In this document: positions 2,991 to 49,400 of the stretch, piece by piece
Layout of the letters: each line of letters begins with the position of its first letter
How positions within the stretch are numbered: the stretch's first letter is position 1
From: an uncultured Verrucomicrobia subdivision 3 bacterium
Lineage (GTDB): Bacteria; Verrucomicrobiota; Verrucomicrobiia; Limisphaerales; UBA11358
NCBI GenBank assembly: GCA_903884535.1
Contig: CAISEZ010000072.1
Span: forward strand, 1-64,000
Length of the DNA: 64,000 bases
Direction of reading: 5' to 3'
Program-made: the position numbers and the translations under genes
Notes under the pieces: generated by a model
Databases searched by the model: none
The model's input: only the letters and a program-made list of their open reading frames with translations
What the model was told of the DNA's origin: nothing

Positions 2991-3080
2991 ATTTTAGCCT
3001 GCAAACTCCGCGCTGGTCTCTCAACCAAAAACCGTTCCGTGAATTTTTTATTCGCGGAATAAAATTGAAAGATCAGTTAA

Positions 3081-4085
3081 ATGAAAATCCGTTCGCTGGC
3101 CCTCGCCAGCCTGTTCGTCGTGTCCGCCGTGTCCGCCTCGACCGTCTCCATCACCGAAAACTTTACCCATGATCCGGCGACGGATGGGTGGCAGGCTTTT
3201 GGCGACACCAATCTTTTCCATTGGGATTCCGCGAATCAAAACCTGGCCGTCACTTGGGATTCCTCGCAGCCAAACAGCTATTTTTATCACCCGCTAGGCA
3301 CGACGTTGACGAGCACGAATAATTTCATGTTGGCGTTCGACTTTCAGATCAACGACATCACCAGCGGGTTGGAATCGGATTACCCATCCACGTTTCAGCT
3401 GGCCATCGGACTGCTGAACAATGGGGAGGCCACCGGCAATGGGTTTATCATCGGCAGCGGTTATCAGGCGGCCGACGTAGTCGAATTTGACTATTTTCCA
3501 GCGTTCAGTGGCTACAACGCGTCCGTGAGCACGCCGATCATTTCAAGTGAAAATAATTTCGCCAATATCGGCTTTGACGTGCCGCTGACGCTGTCGCCCG
3601 GGGTGCATTATCACGCAGTCATGACCTACACGGCGATCAATCAGACGTTGCACACCACGCTTTCCAGCAATGGCGTGCCGGTGGGGCCGCTGCAGGACAC
3701 CACGCTCGGTGCCGGCTTTGACGATTTCAATGTGGATACGATTTCCATCAACAGCTACAGCCAGGCGGGCCAGGACACCTCCGTTCATACGAACGCGGAT
3801 GGCAGCACGGTCATCTATGCCGGTTCGGTTCTCGCGCACGGGACAGTGGGTAAGATGTCTTTTGGCACACCGCTGCCGGTGGTCAACGTGCTGGCCGCCG
3901 CGCCGGGCAATGTCCAGATCGGCGGCACGACCAACTGGATCTTCACGCTCGAACGCACGGCGGATTTTCAATCGTGGACCGATGTGTCCGTGCCGGCGTC
4001 CGGTGTGAATGGCGCGATGACCTTGACCGATACCAATCCGCCGACGGATAAAGCTTTCTATCGAGTCCGTGCCGATCTGCCATGA
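3081..4085 (+). CDS. Secreted beta-sandwich (LamG-like) protein under B12 riboswitch control
   Basis: A 334-residue exported protein with a Sec signal peptide at about residues 1-19. The body ([16 protein letters not shown] onward) looks like a concanavalin A/LamG-type jelly roll rich in Thr, Ser, Asn and aromatic residues. The C-terminal 50 residues ([14 protein letters not shown] to FYRVRADLP) are a small module also seen at the ends of other secreted proteins in this window. No catalytic motif is recognised. Its stop overlaps the next start (ATGA, 4082-4085), so it is translationally coupled to the CWC-prepilin gene. The riboswitch suggests a role in binding or acquiring cobalamin, or in a B12-replaceable process; this is inference. 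There is no good ribosome-binding site. Confidence 0.75.
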
Positions 4086-7438: not shown

Positions 7439-7939
7439 ATGGGTAAACGACGCGAAGCGCGCGAACGCGCGGTCCAATTTCTGTTTCAGCACGATCTGAA
7501 TCCACCGGAAAATCTTGAGCTGGAACTCTCGACGTTCTGGAATTCCCAGCGCGCCGCCGCCATCGAGGATGAAAAAGGCCACGCCAAATGGGGCGAAGTC
7601 ACCGAGCTGCCGCCGCCCACGGTCGAGGAGGCCGAAATGCGCCTGTTCGCCGAGCCGCTCATCCGCGGCGTGATCCAACACCGCGACGCGATTGACGAGA
7701 AGATCAAGGGCCATGCGAAGAACTGGGATTTTCACCGCATCGCCGCCGTGGACCGCAACATCATGCGCCTTGCCATTTACGAGATGCTGCACCGCGAGGA
7801 CATTCCGCCCGCCGTCAGCATCAATGAGGCGGTGGACATCGCCAAAAAGTTTTCCACCGAAGACAGCGGCAAATTCGTGAACGGCATCCTGGATAAAATC
7901 CGCAGTGAGATTCTCCGGCCGGCGAGAACCGTGAAATAG
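7439..7939 (+). CDS. nusB: Transcription antitermination factor NusB
   Basis: All-helical RNA-binding protein that acts with NusE(S10) in antitermination and rRNA synthesis. The 166-residue protein shows the standard start GKRREARERAVQFLFQ and the C-terminal core DRNIMRLAIYEML / PPAVSINEAVDIAKKFSTEDSGKFVNGILDKI. An insertion near residues 33-60 is somewhat longer than in E. coli. The TAG stop at 7937-7939 overlaps the first bases of a heptamer repeat array, so the array begins exactly at the gene end. Confidence 0.93.
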   Translation: MGKRREARERAVQFLFQHDLNPPENLELELSTFWNSQRAAAIEDEKGHAKWGEVTELPPPTVEEAEMRLFAEPLIRGVIQHRDAIDEKIKGHAKNWDFHRIAAVDRNIMRLAIYEMLHREDIPPAVSINEAVDIAKKFSTEDSGKFVNGILDKIRSEILRPARTVK

Positions 7940-7969
7940 TCCAAAGCCCAAAGTCTAAAGTCCAAAGTC
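7938..7969 (+). repeat. Heptamer array, left arm (AGTCCAA x4)
   Basis: Four 7-bp units (AGTCCAA, AGCCCAA, AGTCTAA, AGTCCAA) plus a partial AGTC. The array starts within the nusB stop codon and ends 10 bases before the S23 gene. Its reverse complement occurs as four perfect units on the other side of that gene (8391-8418). Confidence 0.9.
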
Positions 7970-7978
7970 ACCGAGTTC

Positions 7979-8371
7979 ATGGCCAAGATTGAGCGATTTG
8001 AAGATTTGATGAGCTGGCAAAAAGCCCGCGAGTTAAACCGGCTTGTCTATGGCATCTCGCGGCAGGCCGCTTTTGCCAAGGATTTTGGATTGCGCGATCA
8101 GATTCGCAGCGCCTCAATTTCAATCATGTCTAATATCGCGGAAGGATTTGAGCGCGGCGGCGACAAGGAGTTTTTGCAGTTTCTATCCATCACCAAAGGT
8201 TCATGCGGCGAAGTGCGTTCGCAGTTTTATGCCGCGCTGGATGAAAATTATTTAACCACCGAACAGTTTAAAGACATTTGCGATCGCTGCATCGAAGTCA
8301 GCCGCCTGATTTCCGGCTTGATGACATACCTGCGCCGCGCCGAACTGAAAGGCAGCAAATTCAAAGAATGA
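7979..8371 (+). CDS. Four-helix-bundle protein, S23 / 23S rRNA intervening-sequence family
   Basis: A 130-residue all-helical protein of the TIGR02436 type (FEDLMSWQKARELNRLVY near the start, LRDQIRSASISIMSNIAEGF in the middle, FYAALDENYLT). The family was first seen in intervening sequences of Leptospira 23S rRNA genes. Homologues (bAvd) assist diversity-generating retroelements, but most members, including this one, have no neighbour that tells the function. Here the gene stands alone between inverted heptamer arrays (7938-7969 and 8391-8418), forming a unit of about 480 bp inserted between nusB and a PHP gene. No reverse transcriptase or variable repeat is present. The unit looks like a mobile cassette; this is inference. 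Confidence 0.88.
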   Translation: MAKIERFEDLMSWQKARELNRLVYGISRQAAFAKDFGLRDQIRSASISIMSNIAEGFERGGDKEFLQFLSITKGSCGEVRSQFYAALDENYLTTEQFKDICDRCIEVSRLISGLMTYLRRAELKGSKFKE

Positions 8372-8390
8372 AACCTCGCCCGGCGACAAC

Positions 8391-8418
8391 TTTGGACTTT
8401 GGACTTTGGACTTTGGAC
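8391..8418 (+). repeat. Heptamer array, right arm (TTTGGAC x4)
   Basis: Four perfect copies of TTTGGAC, the reverse complement of the left-arm unit. The array ends six bases before the ATG of the PHP gene, so it occupies the usual ribosome-binding-site position of that gene. Confidence 0.92.
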
Positions 8419-8424
8419 TAACTT

Positions 8425-9267
8425 ATGTTCGCCGACCTTCATCTGCACACGTTTTTTTCCGACGGCACGTTCACGCCGGAAGAACTGGTGGAGCGCGCGC
8501 ACAAAATTGGTTTTAGCGTGATTGCGCTGACCGATCACGACACGCTGGAAGGCTGCGCCCGCGCGGCCGCTGCCTGTGCGGCGGTGAAGATGGAATTTAT
8601 TTCAGGTGCTGAACTCACGGCCGAACATGAAGACACGGAGGTTCATGTTCTAGCCTACCTGGTGGACACGCAAAATCAGACGTTGCTCAAGCGGATTGCC
8701 GAGTTCCAGTCCGTCCGCCAGAACCGCATCCGCGAAATGGTCGCGGCCTTGAACAAACAAGGGATTCCGCTGAAGGCTGAATCCGTGTTTGCGCTGGCCA
8801 ATTGCAAATCGCCCGGCCGGCCGCACGTCGCCCGCGCGCTGGTGAAGGAAAAACTCATTGGTAGCCTGGACGAGGCGTTTGAAAAATATCTCAAAAAAGG
8901 CCGGCCCGCGTGGGTGCCAAAAACAAAGATGTCCGCGCTCGAAGCGGTCGAGCTGATTCATCAGGCCGGTGGTCTCGCGGTCATGGCGCATCCCGGCCTG
9001 AACCGCACCGACGACATCATTCCCGCGCTGGTGGCCGCCGGCCTGGACGGCATCGAATGTTTTCATACCAAGCATTCCACCGTGATGTCCGAACGTTATT
9101 TGTTGATCGCAGAAAAACATCATCTGCTCGTCACTGGCGGCAGCGACTGCCACGGTTTCAGCAAAAAAGCCCCGCTCATCGGCACGGTGAAATTGCCCTA
9201 CGAACACGTGCAGCGGCTTTACGCGGCCAAACAAAATCGGAAATCGGAAATCGGAAATCGGAAATAA
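8425..9267 (+). CDS. PHP-domain phosphoesterase (TrpH/RNase AM type)
   Basis: A 280-residue metal-dependent phosphoesterase. The PHP motifs are complete: DLHLHTFFSDG at 4-14, TDHDT near 38, SGAELTAE near 60, GRPHVA near 133, MAHPG near 189, and GSDCHG near 238. Members include 5-nucleotidases and 5-3 exoribonucleases (RNase AM), so the exact substrate is open. The last residues (NRKSEIGNRK) are encoded by a heptamer array that runs up to the stop codon, so the C-terminus is an add-on. The start lies directly behind another heptamer array and has no visible ribosome-binding site. Confidence 0.88.
   Translation: MFADLHLHTFFSDGTFTPEELVERAHKIGFSVIALTDHDTLEGCARAAAACAAVKMEFISGAELTAEHEDTEVHVLAYLVDTQNQTLLKRIAEFQSVRQNRIREMVAALNKQGIPLKAESVFALANCKSPGRPHVARALVKEKLIGSLDEAFEKYLKKGRPAWVPKTKMSALEAVELIHQAGGLAVMAHPGLNRTDDIIPALVAAGLDGIECFHTKHSTVMSERYLLIAEKHHLLVTGGSDCHGFSKKAPLIGTVKLPYEHVQRLYAAKQNRKSEIGNRK
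9234..9261 (+). repeat. Heptamer array inside a coding end (AAATCGG x4)
   Basis: Four perfect copies of AAATCGG followed by AAATAAG, which supplies the TAA stop of the PHP gene. ftsY starts three bases after that stop. Confidence 0.92.
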
Positions 9268-10182: not shown

Positions 10183-11314
10183 TTTCCAATTCATGCAGCT
10201 TGCCCTCCGGCTCGCCCGGCGCGGCTACGGCGCGACGTCGCCGAATCCGATGGTCGGTGCGGTGCTGGTGAAGGGCGGAAAAATCATCGGGCACGGCTGG
10301 CACCGGCGCGCGGGCCAGCCGCACGCGGAAATCGAGGCGCTCCGCGATGCGCAAAAGCACGGCCACTCGCCGCGCGGCGCGACGCTTTACGTCACACTCG
10401 AACCCTGCTGCACGCACGGACGCACGCCGCCTTGCACGGACGCGATTATTTCAGCAGGAATAAAAAAAGTCGTCATCGGCGCGACCGACCCGAATCCGCA
10501 GCACGCGGGCAAAGGCTTCAAGATTTTACGCCGCTCGGGAATTGAAGTCGTTCATGGGATTTTGGGCAATGCGTGCACGAAATTGAATGAGGCCTTTAAC
10601 CATTGGATTGTCCATGGCACGCCTTTCGTCACCGTAAAAGCGGCGATGACGCTGGACGGAAAAATTGCGACAGCGGGTGGCGAATCCAAATGGATCACCG
10701 GTGAAAAAGCCCGCGCGCACGGCGTGAAATTGCGGCAAGGCTCCGACGCCATTCTGGTCGGCATCAACACAATTCTGGCGGACGATCCGAGTCTGACCGC
10801 GAGAAGTCAGAAGTCAGAAGTCGGAAGTCAGAATAATAACTTGCGGCTACGCCGTATCGTTTTGGATTCAATGGCGCGGACGCCGCTGGCGGCAAGAGTG
10901 GTGAGCGATGAATTTGCGGCTTTGACAACAATTGTGGTCGGCCAGCGGGCGCCGAAAGAACGTGCGGCGGCTTTGGCGAAAAAAGTGAAGGTCATCGTTG
11001 CACCCACAGCCTATTTAAAATTTAAAATTCAAAATTCAAGACTGGATTTGCCCTGGTTGTTGAAAAAACTCGGCGCGGAAAATGTGACGAGCCTGCTGGT
11101 GGAGGGCGGCGGCGAGGTGAACGCGGCGTTTTTGGTCGGTGGTTTCGCACAGCGCTTGGCGTTTTTTTACGCGCCAAAAATTCTGGGCGGTCGCGATGCG
11201 CGCAAAGGCGTGGCCGGCGACGGCGTGAAAAACTTGAGCGACGTCATCCGGCTTCGCGACGTCAGTTGGCGCAAGCTGGGCGAGGATTTACTGTTGACGG
11301 CGCGAGTGGATTAA
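10172..11314 (+). CDS. ribD: Bifunctional riboflavin deaminase/reductase RibD
   Basis: Performs deamination and then side-chain reduction of the pyrimidine intermediate in riboflavin synthesis. The deaminase domain has HAEIEAL (zinc His and catalytic Glu) and PCCTHGRTPPC (zinc Cys); the reductase domain has VKAAMTLDGKIA and LLVEGGGEVNAAF. A TTG start at 10172 restores the conserved helix before MQLALRLARRG; an ATG at 10194 would cut into it. Two heptamer arrays lie in frame within the reductase domain (10804-10831 and 11017-11037) and add short linkers (SQKSEVGSQ and LKFKIQNS). Both seem to fall in loops, and the frame is kept. It overlaps ftsY and is followed by ribE. Confidence 0.92.
   Translation: MKTDFQFMQLALRLARRGYGATSPNPMVGAVLVKGGKIIGHGWHRRAGQPHAEIEALRDAQKHGHSPRGATLYVTLEPCCTHGRTPPCTDAIISAGIKKVVIGATDPNPQHAGKGFKILRRSGIEVVHGILGNACTKLNEAFNHWIVHGTPFVTVKAAMTLDGKIATAGGESKWITGEKARAHGVKLRQGSDAILVGINTILADDPSLTARSQKSEVGSQNNNLRLRRIVLDSMARTPLAARVVSDEFAALTTIVVGQRAPKERAAALAKKVKVIVAPTAYLKFKIQNSRLDLPWLLKKLGAENVTSLLVEGGGEVNAAFLVGGFAQRLAFFYAPKILGGRDARKGVAGDGVKNLSDVIRLRDVSWRKLGEDLLLTARVD
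10804..10831 (+). repeat. Heptamer array in ribD (AAGTCAG x4)
   Basis: Units AAGTCAG, AAGTCAG, AAGTCGG, AAGTCAG, read in frame by ribD just before the NLRLRRIVLDS strand of the reductase domain. Confidence 0.9.
11017..11037 (+). repeat. Second heptamer array in ribD (AAAATTC-type x3)
   Basis: Units AAAATTT, AAAATTC, AAAATTC, read in frame and translated as a Lys/Asn-rich linker before LDLPWLLKKL. Confidence 0.85.
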
Positions 11315-19250: not shown

Positions 19251-19675
19251 ACATAAAAATCAAAAGCGGAAAGCGGAAAGCGGAAAGCGGAAACCAAATG
19301 GAGTCGCCGCAAGTTGCCGCGGGCAGAACGCGCGGCTTTCTGGAAGTGGATTTGATCGTCGGCCTCGCCATCTTAACGCTCGCCATCGTGCCGCTGGGCT
19401 ACGCGTTTGCGCGCGAACGGCACGTGCTCAAAATTGAATACGCGCGCAGCGTGGCGAACGAAATCGTGGACGGTGAAATGGAAATTCTTGTCGCCGGCGA
19501 CTGGAAAAACTTCCCCGACGGCGCGCAAAATTATGCCGTTCATGCCAACGCCGCCGCCAGTTTGCCGCCCGGTCATTTTCAACTCACCAAAACCGCCAAT
19601 CATCTGCGCCTCGAATGGAATACCGACGAGAAACGCGGCATCGGCGCCGTTGTCCGCGAAACCACCGTCAAATGA
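19247..19675 (+). CDS. Minor pseudopilin, GspI/GspH-like
   Basis: A 142-residue pseudopilin with prepilin cleavage site RG/FLEVDLIVG, followed by a hydrophobic helix. The invariant Glu at +5 is replaced by Asp, which is rare. The first 17 residues are encoded partly by a heptamer array; an ATG at 19298 would give a normal 13-residue leader instead. Its stop overlaps the next gene (ATGA, 19672-19675). Likely role: tip complex of the pseudopilus. Confidence 0.7.
   Translation: MNIKIKSGKRKAESGNQMESPQVAAGRTRGFLEVDLIVGLAILTLAIVPLGYAFARERHVLKIEYARSVANEIVDGEMEILVAGDWKNFPDGAQNYAVHANAAASLPPGHFQLTKTANHLRLEWNTDEKRGIGAVVRETTVK
19263..19290 (+). repeat. Heptamer array in a pseudopilin leader (AAAGCGG x4)
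   Basis: Four perfect copies of AAAGCGG, read in frame as the Lys/Ser/Gly-rich leader of the pseudopilin gene when translation starts at 19247. Confidence 0.92.
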
Positions 19676-22695: not shown

Positions 22696-22771
22696 GTAGC
22701 GGCGTCTCGGCAGAGCGCCGCAATTTTGGTTTTCATTTTCAGATGGCGGCGGTCTGCCGACTCGCCGCTAC
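22696..22771. repeat. REP-like palindrome over the GH31 stop codon
   Basis: A 26-bp imperfect inverted repeat: GTAGCGGCG plus 17 bases at 22696-22721 and its counterpart at 22746-22771 (TCGGCAGA shared, few mismatches). The spacer of 24 bases holds a T-rich stretch. The stop codon of GH31 (22768-22770) is within the right arm. It may act as a terminator or be a dispersed REP-like element. Confidence 0.7.
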
Positions 22772-40091: not shown

Positions 40092-42197
40092 TTATTGACT
40101 AGCCAGCGGCAGCCAGACCGACATCTCCGACGGCCCGCGATTTTGCCAGACCGAATACGGAATGAACTTCACGCTGACCGGCTTGAATTCGGCAGGTTGA
40201 AAATCACGGTATAATTTCCCGGTCCATTTTTCCTCCGGTCGCGAGACAGCCTTGCCTTCCAGCACCACGATCCCGTCAAGCAAGCGCCGGTCAAACCGCG
40301 GCGTCAGCTTGAGGTCCGGCGGAATCCGCACGTCGGAAATTTTTACGCCGGCCGGCAGGTCTGGCGATTCGAGACAATACACCACCGGCCCGCGCTGAAC
40401 GGCGACTTGGTTCAAATCTTCCTCGATAAGGGGATTGGCTTCCATCAAACGCGCGGGCATCGGCAAATCCAAATCCACAAAATCGCCCGGCGACCACAAG
40501 CGCCGGATTTCAAAATATTTCGGAGCGCCGGTCTCCGCCCCGGCCAGTTTCGGCTGGTTGTTCAACCGCACACTGGCCCCGTTCACCCAGGCTGGAATCC
40601 GCAGCTTCAGCGCAAATTCCTTTTTCCCGCAGGCCTCGATTTTTATCCGCACGCGGCCGTGCCATGGATAATCTGTTTCTTGCGACAATTTTATTTTTTC
40701 GCCGGACAATTCCGTGGCCAGCGAACTGCCGCCGTAAAGATTCACCCAAATCGTCCCGGCAGATTTTCCGTAGGCATAATCGGCCGATTCGGCGATGGTG
40801 CGGACCAGATTCGGCGGACAGCAAAACGAACTCACAAACGGCATGCGCGTCCGCGACCAGCGCAGGTCCAGCGGCATCGGATCGGTCACACGCAGCGGAT
40901 TCGTGTAGAAAAAATTGGTGCCGTCGAGCGCGACGCCGGACAGCACGCTGTTGTAAAGTTCCAGCTCCACCACGTCCATGAACTTCGCGTCGTCCGTCGC
41001 CAGAAACATCCGCCAGTTCCACAGCGCATTGCCAATGTTCGCGCAGGTTTCGTTGTGCGCCGTGGTATTCGGCAGTTGAAAATTCCGGCCATAGGATTGA
41101 TGAACTTTGGTGATGCCCGACTGATAGCTCGCGCCATCCGGCGACGCGCCGTCATAGAGCGCGCCACAGCCGCCGGTGATATACATTTTTTTTGAGACGA
41201 CATTCGTCCAAATTTCGGCAAGCGGCCGCCACAAATTCGTGTCGCCGGTTTCCAGAAACAAATCCGCCGCGCCGGCATAAAGATAATTGGCGCGCACCGC
41301 GTGCCCTTCTGCCTCGTCTTGTTTGGCAAAAGGAATACGATCCTGATTGTCGCTGCCGCCGTCCTTCACCAGGTCGCGCATCGCAAAAATTCTTTTCGCC
41401 AGCGCGAGATAACGCGGCTCGCCCGTGGCGCGATACAGTTCGACGATGCCCATGTAATGCGACGGGCAGACATTTTGCAGCGCCAGTTCTGCCGTCGGTA
41501 TTTTGAAAACTTCATCCAGGCAGTCCGCCGCCTTGCGCGCGATTTGGAGGAAATTCGTTTTGCCCGTCACGCGATAATGCACAGTCGCCGCCGTCAGCAA
41601 CTGGCCCAGATTGTAAACTTCCCACCGGCTCCGGTCGCGGAACGGCACGATGTTGGAATTCGTCTCGCGCTGATGCAACTGCACCCAGGTATCAAGATAG
41701 CCATTCGTCTGCTGTCCCTGCCCGATGACGCCGATGACCTCATCCAATTTTTCATTGAGGCGCGCATCATTGGTCACTGCCAAAGTGGCTGTCGCACCTT
41801 CCAGAAATTTGTAGAAATCGCCGTCGTTGAACGAGGCGCCGTGCGGCTTGCCTTCCACATGTCCGGCGAGGATTTCAAAATTGTAATAAAACTGGCTGTA
41901 ATTCGTGCCCTCCATGAGCCGCGCCATGCCCGGCACCATCTGCGTGCGGCACAATTCGAAGCGGTCCGCCCAAAAACCGCGTGTCCACCGGACTTCATCC
42001 AAGCCGACCGTCTGCACTTTTGCGAATGGACTGCCAGTCGTGTCCACCACGCCGGGCGCGGCGGCAACGGGCAGATTGAACAGAAAACCAATCAGGAAAA
42101 CCTTCAACCGCCAACATTCAATACGGAACATCCAATGAAACCCCAATTCGCCGCGCCGGGGGCGTTGGACGTTGAATGTTGGCGGTTGAAGGTTCAT
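40092..42197 (-). CDS. GH127-like beta-L-arabinofuranosidase (DUF1680)
   Basis: A 701-residue (alpha/alpha)6-barrel enzyme. The zinc and nucleophile set is visible: NETCANIGN (the E-x-C pair) and SFCCPPNLVRT (the CC pair with the catalytic Cys). It carries a hydrophobic signal segment after a heptamer-coded N-terminus. The ATG at 42197 overlaps the preceding stop (ATGA) but reads through a 23-bp heptamer palindrome; an ATG at 42131 would give a normal signal peptide. It should act on arabinose side chains of pectin. Confidence 0.85.
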   Translation of the reverse strand: MNLQPPTFNVQRPRRGELGFHWMFRIECWRLKVFLIGFLFNLPVAAAPGVVDTTGSPFAKVQTVGLDEVRWTRGFWADRFELCRTQMVPGMARLMEGTNYSQFYYNFEILAGHVEGKPHGASFNDGDFYKFLEGATATLAVTNDARLNEKLDEVIGVIGQGQQTNGYLDTWVQLHQRETNSNIVPFRDRSRWEVYNLGQLLTAATVHYRVTGKTNFLQIARKAADCLDEVFKIPTAELALQNVCPSHYMGIVELYRATGEPRYLALAKRIFAMRDLVKDGGSDNQDRIPFAKQDEAEGHAVRANYLYAGAADLFLETGDTNLWRPLAEIWTNVVSKKMYITGGCGALYDGASPDGASYQSGITKVHQSYGRNFQLPNTTAHNETCANIGNALWNWRMFLATDDAKFMDVVELELYNSVLSGVALDGTNFFYTNPLRVTDPMPLDLRWSRTRMPFVSSFCCPPNLVRTIAESADYAYGKSAGTIWVNLYGGSSLATELSGEKIKLSQETDYPWHGRVRIKIEACGKKEFALKLRIPAWVNGASVRLNNQPKLAGAETGAPKYFEIRRLWSPGDFVDLDLPMPARLMEANPLIEEDLNQVAVQRGPVVYCLESPDLPAGVKISDVRIPPDLKLTPRFDRRLLDGIVVLEGKAVSRPEEKWTGKLYRDFQPAEFKPVSVKFIPYSVWQNRGPSEMSVWLPLASQ
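42099..42194. repeat. Perfect 23-bp inverted repeat built of heptamers
   Basis: Arms at 42099-42121 and 42172-42194 are exact reverse complements; units of the left arm are AACCTTC, AACCGCC, AACATTC. The 50-base spacer holds further degenerate units and a GC-rich core. It spans the start region of the GH127-like gene and ends at the stop of the gene before it. Confidence 0.92.
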
Positions 42198-46464: not shown

Positions 46465-49400
46465 TTATTCACGCGTCAGCCAGACAACGCCATTCGGCAG
46501 CGTAACTTTATTTCCGGCCGGAATGGTTTTGGCAGACATTTCAACCTGACCAGTTTTTTCGTCCACAACCTGAATCCGAAACTTGCCGGACTCGGCGGAC
46601 AAATCCATTTCCGCCGGCGCGCCTTCACGAGAGCAGACCAAAATCTGCTTTCCCGGTTCGCGCAGCGCCCAGCGATTTTCCCCGGAAATTTCCGGCCACG
46701 GCTGCAGGTGCGGAATGGCGGCGAGCAATTTCGTATTTGTGGTCGCCGGGAGATTCGGCATCGAGCCGCCGGCGCAGACAAACGCCCAGGCAGCACGGCT
46801 CATGTCCTCGTCCTCACCGGAAGCGATGACCGCCTTATCGGAAAACTTCCGCCGGTATTCCGCCGCCATCGCCGCGAGATTTTCGTCGTTGGGCGTGCCG
46901 CCTTTCCAGCGGCGCTCAAATTGGCGGGGCGAAAGATTTTGTCCGCCTTGCGGCGCAAACAAACCTTTGTCCGTCTGCCACCAATAGCGAAAGCAAATCA
47001 CGTCCACGACCGCGCGACGCTTTTCATCCGCCAGCACCGCGTCCTGCACATCCTTTGTCGCCGCGAGCGCCACCAGCGGATGGTTTTTGGTTTCAACTTC
47101 CCAATCCGCAATCGTATCCAGCCAGAACTGCTCGAACGCCAGCGGCCCGGTGAATTCGCCGCTGGTGAACTGGATGACGTTCGCCTCGTTCGTGAAATTA
47201 TTCAGATTCTGGCGGATGAAATTTTCATGCAGCTGGCGCCGGGCCGGATTCGTAACGTCGTAAAATTGTTCGGCCATGAAGATGCGCTTGCCACCCGCGA
47301 ACACCGGCGGTTCAGGAAAACCGGTGCCGTTGATATTGTTCGCGGAACGCCACGGACAATCCACCCAATGCGCCGCATCTTCGATAACGTTGTGCTGAAA
47401 ATAATTTTCGTTGAACAAAACGAGGCCGCGCTTGTCGCAAATATTCACGAACTGTTGCAGCCGCGACCAATACCACAAATTAAACCGCGTGAGATCGTAT
47501 TGGCTCAAGCCGTCCCACGCCGTGCCCTGTCCGCTGCGCGCGAATGGTTGTTCGTAAAATGGTGGCCACACGTCGCCGTCCATCCGCCGTCCGCGCTCGT
47601 GATCCTCCCGGCGCCGATCATACCAAAGGCCATAATGATGATTGAGCGCGGCGACTTGATTCGACTGCATCGAGTCCGCCAGCACGGCCAGATCGTCGGT
47701 GTAGCCAGGGCCAGTTCGCCCCGGCGCAAAGCGCGACAAGGTCGGACCGAATTTCGCCGCCTCGCTCGGACGAATGTTGCCGGTCCACCATTGCACCTGC
47801 CGGCTGGTGCCGATGAGCAGTTTCCCGTCGCAAACCAGCCAGCCGTTCGTCACGGAAATTTTGAGTTTTGAGTTTTGAGTTTTGAATTGCGGGACGGGAA
47901 TCTCATCAACGTTTTTTGCGCCGCCGGGCTTAGCGGAGATTGGCGCGCGCGATGAGGCGGCGACGATGAAATCGGAAAGCAGCGGCGCAGGCTGCCGCGA
48001 CACCGCGATCAGTTTCGCCGCCTGTTCGGCCGTCGGATTGGTGTATTCTTCCTGCGAACGCTGCATCAATTTGATTTTTGCCGCCGCTTCAGCACCGAGC
48101 CGATCGGCGACTTGCGCAACAAAAAGGCTCTGCGGCTTGACCGACGCATTGGCGTTGTGCCAGACGCCGTTGCCTTCAAATTCACCCCAGCAGCCGAACG
48201 CCCAGTTCTGCGCCGTCGGTGGATTTTCGCAGGAAATTTTTGACGCCTCGCACTGCCATAACACAGAATTCGCTGCGGACCAGCCGGCGCCTTCGCCAGC
48301 CGCACCGCGGTTCATCAAGCTCAAGCCGCCGCCGTCAATCCGGACGTTGTCGAAGAGTGTGCCGCTCGCCCAGCTTTCAATCGCGCCGCTGTCCGCAGTT
48401 GGCAATTCTGCCTCGCACTGCACAAACGCATTCGGCCCGGCGGCGCAGTGGCCGACGGAAAAATCGTGGCGGCCGTGCTCAGCAAAACAGCGCAGAAACA
48501 AAGTCTGCTGCCCCATGGTGAAAAATGTATGACGGCGATAGCCGGCATCCTCCGAAACCGGCGCGAGCGACAAGCAATCTTCCACGGTGACGCGCTTGCA
48601 ACTTTCAAAAATGGCCACCGCTGACCCGGCGAAATGCTGGAACGTAACTTGGCGAACCCACACGTCAGCGGCATTTTCCATTGTGATGGCCATCCACGAA
48701 TGATTTTCATCCTTCGGATTTTGCACGTCGCAAGCGGATTCGAGCCGCAGATTTTCAATGCCGACATTTTTAATTCTTCCCGGCCAAGAATACGTTTTCA
48801 CATAACCGCCGCCGTAATTGTTTTCCATCGCCGTGGTGATTGGCGAATCAACGGTGACCAGATTGCCGTCAATCGTTTTGATCACGCGATCCCAAGCCAG
48901 ATCGCGGCTGCCCGGCTTCCACGTCAGCCGCCAGTCGCCGAGGCCGCCGCCGAATTCCGTCATGCCGAGCGCGTCAATCCATTCCTTGGTGCTGGGACGA
49001 ACCACATTAATTGCATCGCCAATTTTCAGACCGGCAGCGTCTTTCAAATGAAAACTCGTCGCACCAACCGGCACATAATCGTCCGCGATCTGCCAATTTG
49101 CATTTGAGTTGGAAGCAAAATCATTTTTCCCGGCGATGCGGATCAGCGTGCCGCGATCTAAGCCCGCCGCAACAAGAACGGTTCCGCTCTCGTCCGCGCC
49201 TTGACCGCGCAAAACCACGCCGAAGTTGGTGATCTGCAAGCCACCAAAAATTTCATGCCGGCCTCTCAGCAACAAAACCGCGCCGCGAACGCCGTTCGAA
49301 TCCGGCGGCAAGGCGGCGACATAATTTATCGCATTTTGAATGCGCGCCGTTTCGTCGCCCTGAACCAGTGCAACCATCACGCGGACTGGCGCGTCTGGAA

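Follow-up and report, generated by a model that had tools for sequence, protein, structure and literature searches.

Inverted heptamer arrays around S23 genes: a putative mobile cassette resembling the intervening sequences of 23S rRNA

The intervening sequences (IVS) of 23S rRNA have long been suspected of mobility. They comprise about 430–480 nt with one S23 open reading frame (ORF) and terminal inverted repeats of about 30 bp, e.g., in Coxiella burnetii (PMC4990558), and share these features with the cassette described here. Similarly, RAYT/REP systems consist of a gene that is flanked by short inverted repeats, which are also dispersed through the genome without a gene, while MITEs and insertion sequences combine terminal inverted repeats with empty and filled sites and gene-less short forms. 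An excess of heptamers is known from many bacteria, as described in the available parts of two studies (PMC4692102; PMC4679880): the published arrays, GGGAATC in Xanthomonas and GGGGA(C/T)T in Nostoc (PMC4692102), and TAACTGA in Beggiatoaceae (PMC4679880), have the period of 7, the preference for four units and the intergenic position in common with the arrays considered below. X. campestris contains about 186 GGGAATC arrays, most of which comprise four units. About 70 close pairs of these arrays are convergent, another feature shared with the repeats described here, and the accessible part of the report leaves their explanation unsettled (Rehm et al., PMC4692102). In these parts of the two sources, no associated gene is named for the heptamer arrays (PMC4692102; PMC4679880), whereas arms of the GGGA(A/T/C)TC type flank S23 genes in the Xanthomonas family.

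The S23 gene analyzed here is contained in a 484-bp unit that is probably a mobile, IVS-like cassette, whose protein would recognize its own heptamers by the logic of RAYT/REP systems, but without a RAYT. In contrast to IVS, S23 cassettes occupy junctions within mRNA operons, both their copies and their sites are numerous, and their arms are period-7 repeats with a unit that differs between copies. REPs are characterized by one conserved palindrome, whereas S23 arms are defined by their 7-nt period. Unlike MITEs and insertion sequences, the S23 unit has neither a transposase nor a clearly visible target duplication, and the sequence of its arms is not fixed. The gene-plus-heptamer unit looks like an unrecognized mobile element at unrelated sites across many phyla, which may also explain the 7-letter repeats scattered through bacterial genomes.

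Arms, gene and insertion site of the cassette

In the stretch of 64,000 nt that was analyzed (the window), the gene for an S23/four-helix-bundle protein of 130 aa (7979–8371, forward strand; PF05635, TIGR02436) is located between two host genes of the same strand, nusB upstream (7439–7939) and a PHP-domain gene downstream (8425–9267). It is preceded by an imperfect array of AGTCCAA (7938–7969; 4.6 copies) and followed by an array of ACTTTGG (8389–8419; 4.4 copies, all perfect). Read as an inverted repeat, these arrays constitute two terminal arms of 32 nt each (7937–7968 and 8389–8420, forward-strand coordinates), of which the right is the reverse complement of the left with 94% complementarity and a spacing of 420 nt; this pair ranks top among the inverted repeats of the 64-kb window. 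As in an IVS, an S23 ORF thus lies inside terminal inverted repeats, but the unit is found between nusB and the PHP gene and not in a 23S rRNA helix. The preliminary description of this DNA had placed the S23 gene between an AGTCCAA-type array and its reverse complement, and both were located by coordinates. It had also put the nusB stop and the PHP start just outside the arrays: this is true of the PHP start (8425), which follows 4 nt after the end of the right arm, but the nusB stop codon (TAG, 7937–7939) forms the opening 3 nt of the left arm.

In most of the 30 congeners, nusB and the PHP gene overlap (AAATGA), which represents the empty site. Three genomes carry the cassette at this junction, i.e., the window's genome, G001 and G005, and in G021 (L042) an 83-nt heptamer hairpin without S23 is found where the others hold the cassette. 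At a second junction, two of the 30 loci read are filled, and the others are free of S23. Comparison of filled and empty nusB|PHP sites, where junction bases have drifted, leaves room for a target-site duplication of 0–1 bp at most. Where two or three genomes share an insertion site, their copies are 66–90% identical and hence old. The median distance from the upstream stop to the left arm is 2 nt, and from the right arm to the downstream start 6 nt.

Inverted arms at S23 genes and at a second gene family

The window's genome encodes six true S23 genes and one sub-threshold relative (L007). Inverted arms, mostly of period 7, flank all six true genes, with a different unit each time (GAGTTGA, GGTTCAG, GGTTGCA, AGTCCAA, GGAGGAC and a degenerate AGAGTGG); the GAGTTGA arms are 33 nt long and 100% complementary. 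At L007, arms were not found. A search of 352 kb of this genome detected 24 inverted pairs, whereas block-shuffled sequence gave 2; among the pairs whose loop has the size of a gene, S23 cassettes occupy the first two ranks. S23 is present in 35 of 40 relatives, with up to 14 copies. The loci of these relatives were combined with 80 from a scan of named genomes (Verrucomicrobiota, Planctomycetota, Bacteroidota, Proteobacteria, Chloroflexota, Gemmatimonadota, Acidobacteriota, Clostridia, and others), for which the search pattern was biased toward canonical S23 proteins. Among the resulting 175 distinct testable loci, 129 have arms scoring at least 14, and about a quarter fall below this threshold; for mispaired controls, in which the left flank of one S23 locus is paired with the right flank of another, the value is 1.3%. 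A Xanthomonadaceae-centered set of 45 loci, mostly from the family of L093 (Pseudoxanthomonas), contains 41 with inverted arms (control 9.6%), many of which are of the GGGA(A/T/C)TC or GGGACCC type. The best arm period is 7 in 69 of 83 loci and 8 in another 9, the heptamer unit varies from locus to locus, and of 82 5′ arms read in the coding direction, 75 are G-rich (p 2e-15). Median arm and unit lengths are 31 nt and 468 bp, respectively. Some S23 loci of planctomycetes and Verrucomicrobia have arms of 128–213 nt, also of period 7 (L145, L027), and 31 nt is therefore not a universal arm length.

The cassette with terminal inverted arrays that the preliminary description had seen at this locus is strongly supported, since the architecture recurs at other S23 loci, and empty as well as filled sites were found. 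The survey of S23 genes that it had suggested revealed flanking arrays at the S23 genes of relatives, and the comparison of empty and filled sites, carried out among congeners, uncovered both kinds at the nusB|PHP and at the second junction. It had named arrays equally frequent next to unrelated genes as an argument against its view. Indeed, solo arrays adjoin such genes, but inverted arms of gene-sized spacing are present at only 6 of 127 (4.7%) other genes of the same loci.

Related S23 proteins share related arms. For proteins with an identity of 60% or more whose sites lack flank homology, the sharing of arm 5-mers amounts to 0.38–0.42, compared to about 0.05 for pairs less than 45% identical and 0.01–0.05 in the opposite-strand control, and the observed correlation of protein identity with arm 5-mer sharing is reached in none of 2000 permutations. 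This extends across phyla: L085 from a Bacteroidota MAG and L092 from a betaproteobacterial MAG are 66% identical and have AGGATTC/AGGATTG arms. As in RAYT/REP systems, the repeat type follows the gene lineage. Since related S23 genes keep related heptamers at unrelated sites, sequence comparison suggests that gene and arms move together as one unit. Landing of S23 inside one pre-existing array would leave direct flanks, whereas the observed flanks are inverted.

An instructive exception to the rarity of inverted gene-sized pairs at other genes is provided by the GxxExxY genes. In the window's genome, a GxxExxY gene (PF13366, TIGR04256; PDDEXK_3) lies between inverted arrays of period 8/9 (L220:434-858, G000:C30), and inverted arms are present at 28 of 29 GxxExxY loci of relatives (L267-L296; control 4%), mostly with a period of 8–10. 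With 7 at S23 and 8–10 at GxxExxY, the period goes with the gene carried and not with the host. GxxExxY cassettes are a parallel and apparently undescribed family; in the literature, nothing was found that ties S23 to inverted arrays, nor was such a link found for Avd pentamers or GxxExxY. A tentative, broader hypothesis is that S23 and GxxExxY are two members of an unrecognized class of mobile elements, whose ends would be short tandem arrays with a period set by the protein instead of a fixed sequence, which would seed and maintain the dispersed repeats of many bacterial genomes, including the heptamers of Xanthomonas, and in which the S23 pentamer would read five repeats at a spacing of 7 nt. 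The PD-(D/E)XK family name of GxxExxY hints at a nuclease. If the parallel holds, short-repeat ends may generally mark the termini of tiny elements without a conserved sequence. Gene-less hairpins of the type CCACGGATxxACAC or CCACAGATxx, with a period of about 10, occur in operon junctions (PHP|ftsY in L037-L066; L411, L412, L414) and are similar to GxxExxY arms.

Where both neighbors agree in strand, S23 is in sense orientation in 112 cases and antisense in 6. For this bias, the best explanation is that selection favors expression by read-through of the host operon. RNA-level insertion was considered as a cause and rejected: S23-less hairpins, although few, are unbiased (3 sense, 3 antisense), and their lack of orientation bias makes selection for expression the simpler reading.

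Heptamer arrays and hairpins outside the cassettes

Period 7 accounts for 18 of the 27 tandem arrays (periods 3–15) in 352 kb of the window's genome, so that, again as in RAYT/REP systems, repeats of the flanking kind are dispersed elsewhere. Solo arrays of period 7 on the forward strand of the window are AAATCGG (9234–9265; 32 nt) at the 3′ end of the PHP gene, AGAAGTC (10802–10829) and ATTTAAA/ATTCAAA (11013–11039) within the coding sequence of ribD, AAAGCGG (19263–19293; 31 nt), whose unit also builds the arms of an S23 lineage among the congeners, and TTTTGAG (47859–47885). A heptamer hairpin without S23 on the reverse strand (42099–42194), with arms of 23 nt (42099–42121 and 42172–42194) that are 100% complementary and enclose a loop of 50 nt, is a candidate non-autonomous derivative of the cassette.

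Several further repeats were observed in passing. The PHP protein owes its C-terminus to the AAATCGG array, which only G014 shares among the 30 congeners read; varied hairpins accumulate at the PHP|ftsY junction of these genomes. Both ribD arrays are translated, and the reading frame stays open. Elsewhere in the window's genome, L213:1150-1217 and 3063-3274 (G000:C148) contain GTCCAAA, GGTTGCA and AACCTTC arrays and a heptamer hairpin, apparently within coding sequence; two similar segments of L213 bear different heptamer arrays. An imperfect, GC-rich inverted repeat of 29 nt with an 18-nt loop in the window (22696–22771) is non-heptameric.

Arrays and S23 co-occur in sampled stretches of related genomes: five S23-bearing genomes contain 47 period-7 arrays and hairpins in 1,092 kb, and four S23-free genomes contain 2 arrays and no hairpin of this period in 667 kb. 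Each S23-bearing genome exceeds each S23-free one (rank chance 1 in 126). Because the genomes compared are related, co-occurrence of S23 and arrays, here and in the following counts, is not phylogenetically independent. From the published Xanthomonas arrays, co-occurrence of GGGAATC arms and arrays with S23 had been predicted beforehand, and it was seen in the family of L093 (Pseudoxanthomonas), through which the result relates to Xanthomonas itself: GGGAATC arrays are present in 37 of 64 S23-bearing and in 10 of 85 S23-free genomes (Fisher p 3e-9). Likewise, in the window's genus, five genomes with an S23 of the AAAGCGG arm type contain more AAAGCGG arrays than the others (p 7e-4); for the many AAAGCGG arrays of the window's genome, a cognate S23 was not found in its 93.6% complete assembly.

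These observations bear on the possibility that the S23 protein is passive, i.e., that the cassette moves as a unit by unrelated host or phage machinery, that S23 acts on the RNA stem only, and that solo arrays arise by unrelated slippage. The Coxiella IVS, in which an S23 ORF is combined with a terminal stem of 28 bp that RNase III cleaves (PMC4990558), is consistent with this, as are the in silico folding of the window's cassette transcript, in which the arms form the closing stem (z −4.15), and the sense bias of 112:6. However, a passive protein is unlikely, as it accounts neither for the co-occurrence of S23 with arrays and short hairpins outside cassettes, nor for a period that tracks the gene family.

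Alternatively, the replication machinery might favor heptamers by polymerase slippage, as hypothesized in the available parts of two studies (PMC4692102; PMC4679880), and S23 might land in or tolerate such regions. This would agree with the documented excess of heptamers in many bacteria and with the occurrence of solo arrays, some of them within genes. However, slippage cannot yield two inverted arrays of one arbitrary unit around one gene family, and it predicts a smooth decay of array length, whereas solo arrays peak at 31 nt, or 4.4 units (22 of 88 are exactly 31 nt long); part of this sample was fetched by a pattern that may overrepresent long arrays, though this would not create a peak at 31. 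Moreover, S23-free relatives are nearly devoid of arrays. Slippage is already disfavored as an explanation and appears quite improbable. G-quadruplex formation, given as a reason for four units in the accessible part of the Xanthomonas report (PMC4692102), does not fit AAAGTCC and AAAGCGG arrays, which are without runs of at least 3 G.

The S23 protein and its possible mode of action

The sole gene of the cassette matches PF05635 alone (E 4e-34; 117.4 bits, cut-off 33.8), and a Y1 (HUH) transposase was not found in the cassette. The protein also scores 108.8 against the TIGR02436 profile (cut-off 24), and by these curated cut-offs it belongs to the S23/23S_rRNA_IVP family. To our knowledge, S23 contains no recognized nuclease motif and no known recombinase motif. 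A monomeric AF2 model (pLDDT 94) has the four-helix bundle fold of 2gsc and 2rld (Foldseek E 8.5e-6, TM 0.80–0.89), and the next matches are Avd (4dwl) and Avd in a DGR RNP (8ub7), each with probability 1.00. 2gsc, a solved S23 structure, originates from Xanthomonas campestris. Each of the deposited relatives 2gsc, 2rld and 4dwl contains five chains; judging from the model, the window's S23 shares its fold with pentameric relatives, Avd among them.

The fold that S23 shares with Avd, together with its sense orientation bias, raises the possibility of a DGR-like element, in which S23 would work as an Avd relative with a reverse transcriptase on cassette RNA. However, in contrast to DGRs, RVT_1 is absent from the window's genome (G000, 7 S23 hits) and from G001 (14 hits, 97% complete), as well as from 24 of 40 relatives, and the short hairpins are without orientation bias (3 sense, 3 antisense), which makes a DGR-like element highly improbable. 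Because RVT_1 is absent from S23-rich genomes, a resident partner of the DGR type is largely refuted, which leaves a reverse transcriptase of a phage or plasmid acting in trans.

In the favored reading, i.e., a mobile cassette whose protein recognizes its own heptamers, a pentameric S23 ring would bind the heptamer arms of its cassette, either as DNA or as the terminal stem of the transcript, with successive subunits reading repeats spaced 7 nt apart. A length of 31 nt can be divided into five cores of 3 nt and four spacers of 4 nt and could thereby be matched to five subunits; with one binding site on each subunit of the ring, the period and the 31-nt length would have a common explanation. 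By this recognition, S23 would cause the cassette to move or to be copied; the cutting and joining of DNA may be borrowed from host functions, and a reverse transcriptase in the same genome would not be needed. S23 might also act in trans on short derivatives that consist of arms only, as RAYTs do on REPs. In the preliminary description, S23 had been suggested as the factor that serves the heptamers in the manner of RAYTs. Two independent correlations, the joint inheritance of gene and heptamer and the co-occurrence of arrays with S23, speak for such a role, from which we infer binding and movement, but the analogy with RAYTs does not extend to homology.

If true, three puzzles would become one: the role of orphan S23 genes, the excess of 7-nt repeats in many bacteria, and the nature of the 23S rRNA IVS. 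The intergenic S23 copies make the old idea of IVS mobility testable, and the simple prediction that the subunits of a protein recognize regularly spaced repeats can draw on solved structures, such as that of XCC0516.

Purifying selection acts on S23, with dN/dS values of 0.03–0.20 in general and of 0.09–0.17 between the window's gene and its two orthologous insertions. Several S23 copies of G028 contain in-frame stops, which suggests decay of the family in that lineage.
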